From: an uncultured Fretibacterium sp.
GTDB lineage: Bacteria > Synergistota > Synergistia > Synergistales > Aminobacteriaceae
DNA length: 64,000 nt
Direction: 5' to 3'
Assembly (NCBI GenBank): GCA_946183145.1
Contig: CAMGZM010000002.1
Location: forward strand, 186,001 to 250,000
Part shown: piece by piece, positions 3,964 through 34,774 of the stretch
Position numbering within the stretch: the first letter of the stretch is position 1
Layout: each line of letters starts with the position of its first letter
Program-made: the position numbers and the translations under genes
Notes under the pieces: model-generated
Seen by the model: only the letters and a program-made list of their open reading frames with translations
The model's database searches: none
What the model was told of the DNA's origin: nothing

Positions 3964-4435
3964 TTATTGGGCTTCTGATTCTGATGGCTGTGATTTCTTT
4001 GTGCTTTTTTCGGATTCAGATGAGAGATATACATTCAGAATGACATATAACTTGTCCGCATGAAGATATATATCGTCAATCGTTTCAATTGGGATTCGCG
4101 TTTCTTTCCTGTCCTCGCCGAAAAAGCCTATATATTTGCTGTTTGTGTTGTTAAAGTAGAATCTGCAGAGGGGTTTTCTCTGGTTTCCGTCAAGAAGAAC
4201 ATTGCAGTAATTCACAGTGTCTTTTATGGTTATGCGCTTAACGTCTGCTTTGTTCCTGAGTATTGCTTTCACAGCGTTGTAGCCGTCAATTTCTTCCTGT
4301 GTCGTAACGATTCTGCTTTTTGGTTCTGAAGGTGTTTCGGGTGAAGAGTCTTCTTGCTGCTCTGAAGGTGTATTAGCTGCTTTTTCCTCTGACAGTGCGG
4401 AGGCTAATCGGTCGCTTCCTCTGTCGCTTATCGAA
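3964..4435 (-). pseudogene. C-terminal remnant of a type I restriction endonuclease-like protein
   Basis: An open frame without a plausible start except GTG at 4272 runs from about 4460 down to 3964. Its translation has an acidic Ser/Pro/Gln linker, then IVTTQEEIDGYNAVKAILRN, RDT-like KDTVNYCNVLLDGNQRKPLCR, FYFNNTNSKYIGFF and IPIETIDDIYLHADKL. This order (VTT-EEI-GY, LLD-N-RKP-CR-FN, DDIY) is the C-terminal module I associate with type I restriction endonuclease-like proteins of anaerobes. The upstream catalytic part is absent; the frame ends at the boundary of the repeat element that follows. A short intact protein starting at 4272 cannot be excluded. Confidence 0.45.
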
Positions 4436-4502
4436 ACCCGCCGTAAAACCCCTTGCTTTAGCTATGTGGATATAAGGCGCAATATAGTATAATAATTTTA
4501 CA

Positions 4503-4787
4503 GTTAGTCGTTCCGCGTTACCAAAAATGTAGCAACACCAACAAATTGAAGTACGGGGAAACACTTTCCTCTTGCCGCAGCGTAGCACTTAGAGATTTTT
4601 ATCTCCGGACTGGGTGAACTATGACGGGTTCTATGAGAAAAGGTGTAAGAAGTAAAGCAAAGTAATGTTGTGTCCTATTTAGGGCTATACAGTCCCTTAC
4701 GGGGCTACGCTAGAGGCGGACTGGCCACGCCTTTGAGAATAAGGATGCCTGCTATTGTAGGTGGAAACTTAAAATCAAACTTCTCAA
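4503..4787 (+). ncRNA. Dispersed structured RNA element, copy A (omegaRNA/HEARO-like candidate)
   Basis: A non-coding element whose core (4503-4689) is roughly 90% identical by eye to copy B at 34437-34691, in opposite orientation. The 5' boundary at GTTAGTCGTTCCGC is abrupt; bases to its left are unrelated in the two copies. Stems seen: GGGGAAA/TTTCCTC around 4555-4571; CAGTCC/GGACTG (4690-4722); TTGAGAA 4733-4739 with TTCTCAA 4781-4787, which covaries with copy B; and a perfect 8-bp long-range pairing AGCGTAGC 4579-4586 with GCTACGCT 4704-4711. Copy A has an extra hairpin (GAGAT/ATCTC) absent from B. Further hairpins lie to about 4845. TATAAT at 4488-4493 could drive it. No nuclease gene is attached. 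The family assignment is a hypothesis; the structure is supported directly. Confidence 0.6.
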
Positions 4788-4857
4788 GAACCCCCTACCG
4801 AAAGGCTTGGGGAGGCTCAGAGCAGAAATATATTGCCTCCCGTCATCCCTTGAGCTT

Positions 4858-34384: not shown

Positions 34385-34436
34385 CGCTAACAACCTCCCG
34401 TAAAATTATGTAGTTGTGAATGGGCTTAAATATACC

Positions 34437-34691
34437 GTGTACTTTCTGCAACAAGAATAACAGAATTTGCAAGAAGTTTGACATCAAGCCCTTATTCTTG
34501 CAGGCGTGTACACTTCGCCCCTACTGTATAGCCCTAAAAAGGACACAACATTACTTTGATTTACTTCTTGCACCTTTTCTCATAGAACCCGTCATAGTTC
34601 ACATTTGTGCTACGCTGCGGCGAGAGGAAAGTGTTTCCCCGTATTGCTTTTGATGGTGTTGCTACATTTTTGTTAATGCGGAACGACTAAC
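34437..34691 (-). ncRNA. Dispersed structured RNA element, copy B (omegaRNA/HEARO-like candidate)
   Basis: Inverted second copy of the element at 4503. On the minus strand it opens with the same GTTAGTCGTTCCGC at 34691 and shares the GGGGAAA/TTTCCTC hairpin, the CCGCAGCGTAGCAC block and the GAAC..GTTC region. It lacks about 21 bases present in A after GTAGCAC and has a shorter 3' domain. Its stem GCAAGAA (34495-34501) with TTCTTGC (34469-34475) matches A's TTGAGAA/TTCTCAA with three compensated pairs. The same 5' arm can alternatively pair with TTATTCTTGTTGCAG (34443-34457), and GTGTAC/GTACAC closes a longer hairpin. A TATAAT lies 18 bases upstream of the boundary. It is inserted between yggS and sepF; the rest of 34394-34774 shows no gene. 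Confidence 0.6.
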
Positions 34692-34774
34692 CGCTTAAAG
34701 CATTCAAAAATTATAACAAAAACTAAAAATGACGCGTTTAATAAAGTCGAAAGTGTTCACACAAAAAACAAATA

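Follow-up and report, generated by a model that had tools for sequence, protein, structure and literature searches.

The 64,000-nt stretch of DNA from an uncultured Fretibacterium sp. analysed here (the window) harbors two non-coding elements, A and B, which are interpreted, with reasonable though by no means full confidence, as non-autonomous (satellite) elements of the IS200/IS605 type. According to this interpretation they would produce trans-acting omegaRNAs from a promoter of their own, equipped with a portable 5' domain that aids the free omegaRNA. Both elements show the same order of parts: a left end, a promoter-like -10 box, a 5' RNA domain of ~150 nt, a TnpB omegaRNA scaffold, a right-end hairpin, and host DNA in guide position. 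OmegaRNAs are normally processed from the tnpB mRNA. As in the TnpB omegaRNA or right-end RNA (reRNA) of IS200/IS605 elements such as ISDra2, the scaffold shares homology with the 3' end of tnpB and with the right end, the guide position is taken by host flank, and a sequence resembling a transposon-associated motif (TAM), TTTAT or TTATC, is present at the insertion target; unlike these systems, the satellites lack tnpB in cis, possess their own predicted promoter, and carry the additional conserved ~150-nt domain at their 5' side (PMC10097598, PMC10278001).

An earlier reading of the letters alone (the sequence-only reading) had described two non-coding blocks in opposite orientation, and both are present where it had placed them, at 4503-4787 (+ strand) and 34437-34691 (- strand). 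The ~90% identity attributed to their shared core is borne out outside one apical-stem indel of ~21 nt; with this indel included, BLAST yields 83% identity across 191 nt of A. The limits given for A proved too narrow: alignment of the copies together with their flanks shows that it spans about 4432 to 4820 (+), extending leftwards through a palindromic left end, which begins directly after TTAT, and rightwards through a right-end hairpin finishing with CTCAG at 4820. For B, the proposed end at 34437 is exact, and the left end lies further out, at about 34762 (-; boundary approximate). Nor is the repeat restricted to two copies, as whole-genome BLAST with A gave 17 matches at about 13 places in its own genome.

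The 3' half identifies the RNA family. Scaffold and right-end hairpin of A (4661-4820, +; starting with AGTAATG and ending with GGCTCAG) and of B (34437-34555, -) are homologous to the 3' ends of intact tnpB genes from this and related genomes, with which the scaffolds can be aligned (L043, L132-L135, and L152). One of the matches in A's own genome is the 3' end of the intact gene of a 433-aa TnpB (L043; G000:C10:51947-53245), classified as RNA-guided endonuclease TnpB by NCBIfam. The protein contains FNADVNG, in line with the NADXN signature of RuvC-III that is used for 'Derived' TnpBs (PMC10278001). The element encoding it has a left end like that of A, also located after TTATC, and its scaffold begins within the C-terminal codons and extends as far as the right end; A is a complete element with ends of this same kind (type I). 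The scaffold of B is closest to tnpB 3' ends of a second TnpB subfamily (59% protein identity), with parents in genome G036. In ISDra2, the omegaRNA overlaps the tnpB 3' end and the right end, the TAM is located upstream of the target, and the guide is found at the RNA's 3' end (PMC10097598). As judged from their sequences, A and B have this layout, and the predicted guides are the host flanks directly 3' of the right ends, at 4821-4840 (+) for A and 34417-34436 (-) for B. The homology of the 3' half to right ends and tnpB 3' ends places the guide 3' of the scaffold, as in TnpB systems, and not 5' of it, as in IscB/IsrB. The sequence-only reading was thus right in seeing a structured RNA of the OMEGA world that is mobile, dispersed, and has compensated stems; the family it favored (HEARO/IscB) and the polarity it assumed did not hold. 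As a separate observation, L043, the partner-type TnpB, lacks the glutamate at the usual RuvC-II position (GYN motif), which may be supplied by EESYTSK close by.

Mobility is documented for B, whose left end is a degenerate type II end. In two relatives, G004 and G030, the intergenic region between yggS and sepF is retained and lacks the element: the unoccupied sites read TTTTTAT followed by GGTATATTTAGCG, and the site occupied by B reads AGTACAC followed by GGTATATTTAAGC. The start of the predicted guide, GGTATATTTA, is found directly after TTTTTAT in both empty sites. The unoccupied site of both relatives consists of a TAM-like TTTAT plus the guide sequence of B and would therefore be the expected cleavage target of a TnpB loaded with B RNA. 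For A, a TTAT target and candidate TAM lies at 4428-4431 (+), and nearly all type I left ends likewise directly follow TTATC; an empty site for A was sought via the neighboring protease gene, where the neighborhood is not syntenic, and was not found. The aligned left end of A contains a hairpin at 4440-4479 (+), GCCGTAAAACCCCTTGCTTTAGCTATGTGGATATAAGGC. Ends in common with an autonomous element, lack of a transposase, dispersed copies, and an empty site are all observed, as expected of a non-autonomous IS605-type element, i.e. a palindrome-associated transposable element (PATE) or miniature inverted-repeat transposable element (MITE). Further ends-only IS605 elements are reportedly represented by the PATEs of Haloquadratum. 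PATEs resemble the satellites in their palindromic left and right ends, missing transposase, and occurrence in several copies, but the satellites additionally hold an RNA gene whose conserved domain is new and common to several transposon families (PMC7290912). One copy, L053 (G022:C173), combines a type II left end with a type I right end and is likely a recombinant between satellite families.

Transcription probably proceeds from the element's own promoter and starts at the hairpin hp1, because promoter hexamers are located at a fixed distance in front of it: in most copies hp1 follows about 6-8 nt downstream of the -10 box. TATAAT boxes are found at 4488-4493 (+) in A, where the -35 region is weak, and at 34710-34715 (-) in B. 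In general, Synergistaceae copies have a good -10 and a weak -35, and Negativicutes copies mostly show TTGACT or TTGACA, a 17-nt spacing, and TAAAAT. The promoter score reached at least 9 of 12 in 27 of 36 copies, against a shuffled mean of 7.4. The sharp 5' boundary shared by A and B had been taken for a guide junction; it is internal to the element, being preceded by left end and promoter, and is explained by the predicted transcription start at this place and by the left ends of A and B, which are of different types and diverge upstream. Hairpin hp1 itself occurs in the variants GCGG/CCGC, GTGG/CCAC, GAGG/CCTC, and ACGG/CCGT; the GCGG/CCGC type is intact in B (34678-34694, -) and has a degenerate left strand in A (4500-4516, +).

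Downstream of hp1, the conserved 5' core (A, 4552-4649, +, model R1; B, 34567-34643, -, with the short apical form CAC-AAAT-GTG) comprises two hairpins, P2 and the long P3; the latter is interrupted by an AA bulge that hardly varies and by another of 5 nt, in most cases CGGAC. Loop and tail likely form a pseudoknot, with candidate pairings ACAC/GUGU and GCAC/GUGC, and ACAU/AUGU in L004. Single-sequence folding energies are uninformative (z of 0.4 and -0.3, not significant), so that the case for structure is carried by covariation. In 41 sequences, 96.8% of the P3 pairs are kept and 10 of 16 pairs are changed on both sides; the doubly changed cells, which count sequences and not independent events, number 65, whereas shuffling gives 19.8 on average and sliding of the partners no more than 8. 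The most common P3 change is that from CGUAG/CUAUG to CGCGA/UCGUG, the latter being found only in Negativicutes copies. The compensated stem noticed by the sequence-only reading, TTGAGAA/TTCTCAA in A and GCAAGAA/TTCTTGC in B, was confirmed: across 38 distinct relatives, pairing is maintained in 98 of 114 cases at its three variable pairs (mean 78 and maximum 89 in 2000 shuffles). P2 fits the Selenomonad copies poorly. Two side observations may be added here. A conserved P3a G-U wobble is replaced by A-C, an isosteric wobble, in L230, L240, and L289 (Negativicutes), hinting at a tertiary contact. L023 (G000:C4) and L199 (G030:C8) are located at the same gene in two species and have alike right flanks, with a short versus a long apical stem, suggesting replacement or a stem change after divergence.

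At least 55 distinct copies of the 5' domain were collected. Scanning 84,980 species genomes for an exact pattern revealed it only in metagenome-assembled genomes (MAGs) of Synergistaceae/Synergistales (one named Fretibacterium) and Selenomonadales/Veillonellaceae, largely from ruminants. With a covariance model, 12 out of 188 Synergistota genomes proved positive, every one belonging to a single genus; the domain was also present in 18 out of 189 genomes from the Selenomonad order and, more distant short forms included, in 24 of 380 genomes of the class. The core had no match in the viral contigs, plasmids, or phages searched, and no Rfam family matched the 5' domain at permissive E-values. 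A coding role was rejected, with no conserved open frame visible by eye and stop codons in the frame continuing into the tnpB remnant, and so was a self-cleaving ribozyme or group I intron, for which no model matched; Rfam searches likewise gave no intron match of the kind expected for an IStron (a group I intron fused to IS605).

The domain is not bound to one transposon family. A second satellite family (L061, L072, L108, and L129) has the common 5' core, with ends and scaffold that match L144, an IS607 element that encodes both a transposase of the serine-recombinase type and a TnpB of its own. As far as sequence comparison tells, the 5' core is thus linked with omegaRNAs from one IS607 family and from no fewer than two families of IS605 type, and the junction is found each time at the AGTA motif with which the scaffold starts. 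As an IS607-derived satellite with a TnpB scaffold, the L061 family resembles IS607 TnpB systems with RAGATH-18 reRNA, from which it differs by lacking a RAGATH-18 match and by a 5' domain that lies 5' of the scaffold and is present in IS605 satellites too (PMC11061315). At E<=5, Rfam gave only chance snoRNA matches for the four IS607-type copies. By tblastn around all core loci (up to about 1.5 kb), no own transposase, IS607 tnpA included, and no own tnpB were detected, in agreement with the earlier remark that no nuclease stands next to the RNA; the sole transposon-gene match was another TnpB gene beside an insertion. Conversely, the ~150 nt upstream of the scaffold in satellites are absent from the tnpB-bearing elements examined, which gave no 5' core match. 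The L144 TnpB, it may be added, has a RuvC-II pattern like that of L043.

Taken as omegaRNA-producing satellites, the elements would depend on autonomous tnpB-bearing relatives. The promoter within the left end would give rise to a transcript that starts at hp1 and comprises a probably pseudoknotted 5' domain, the TnpB omegaRNA scaffold, the right-end hairpin, and host DNA, the first 16-20 host nt of which would act as guide. A TnpB made elsewhere may then bind the satellite RNA and cut the vacated donor or sister empty sites, recognized by TAM and guide. Upon cleavage the element would be copied back or retained, as suggested by the known biology of TnpB and the empty sites of B. The 5' domain, presumably by now a portable module common to satellites of different transposon families, would most likely stabilize the free omegaRNA or promote TnpB loading, thereby replacing the tnpB mRNA; this is the weakest step. 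Several findings weigh against this model. In G030 (99% complete) and G013, elements are present and the matching clade is not represented by any full-length TnpB, and in G034 (91% complete) TnpB was not seen at all, so that some copies look orphaned. With most of the genomes being MAGs, such absences carry little weight. L026, L027, and L029 lack most of the 5' core and are nevertheless dispersed at separate places, indicating that the core is not needed for mobility. Moreover, hp1 of A is partly broken.

A bolder proposal, regarded as tentative, is that the 5' domain represents a new class of RNA, namely a transferable module for making or controlling TnpB guide RNAs that act in trans. Satellites of both IS605 and IS607 would have acquired it, with exchange between Synergistota and Negativicutes, and it would act by an undescribed mechanism, e.g. 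hijacking the TnpB of autonomous copies or altering TnpB activity. Satellites without tnpB appear to hold guide-RNA genes driven by their own promoter, whose 5' domain is dedicated, under strong constraint, and common to transposons of two unrelated transposition chemistries, which makes the hijacking of TnpB homing in trans testable. The recurrent AGTA junction suggests a functional 5' edge of the scaffold, and such a natural 5' extension might stabilize or tune compact RNA-guided nucleases.

The high conservation of the core across phyla, its indifference to the type of omegaRNA, and certain host genomes without a matching TnpB would also fit a functional RNA independent of TnpB, either a regulator or a ribozyme-like cargo, with the omegaRNA end kept only for the sake of the right end. 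This is considered rather unlikely, as no core copy without an omegaRNA-like 3' part was encountered among the copies with enough sequence read (a subset of copies was checked), and the junction always falls at the scaffold start. It is likewise unlikely that the 5' domain acts on transcription (put/EAR-like antitermination via the right-end hairpin) or on TnpB activity (binding without cutting) instead of RNA stability: tnpB-bearing elements transcribe through a like right end without any 5' domain, even though the domain begins at the predicted +1 independently of the downstream scaffold and the hairpin lies between promoter and guide. Passive MITEs generated by internal deletion, in which conserved hairpins serve transposition as DNA and have no RNA function, are improbable. 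Transposable-element ends, multiple copies, and short-core deletions at several places are in line with them, but the 5' domain is no part of tnpB-bearing elements and hence not a leftover, the covariation includes G-U pairs, and the promoter is retained. In addition, the domain occurs in IS607 elements too, and their serine recombinase works without single-stranded hairpins. HEARO, the standalone transposon guide RNA of IscB/IsrB that had been named as a candidate, shares a structured, mobile, standalone nature and a sharp 5' boundary, but can be virtually discarded: it serves a different nuclease with the guide at its 5' end, the 5' boundary of A and B lies inside the element and is not a guide junction, their 3' part derives from tnpB 3' ends, and no Rfam HEARO match was obtained at E<=10 in A or B or at E<=5 in relatives.

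The window also encodes a TnpB of its own at 1475-2722, which was rejected as partner of A and B: its right end differs, and no matching scaffold was found in its 3' end. This protein of 415 aa (RuvC-III DRDIH; 1475-2760, +, including its own right-end hairpin GCTCCCGCTAAAAACGGGCGGGGGTAGTTCAC) is encoded between genes resembling those of a branched-chain amino-acid ABC permease and a substrate-binding protein. Finally, L024 (G000:C1:132873-133148), L065, and L066 share a different scaffold start, AGTAAGCG..AAAGGCTCACGA..GTGAGAAG, suggesting either a short variant or an additional type of omegaRNA.
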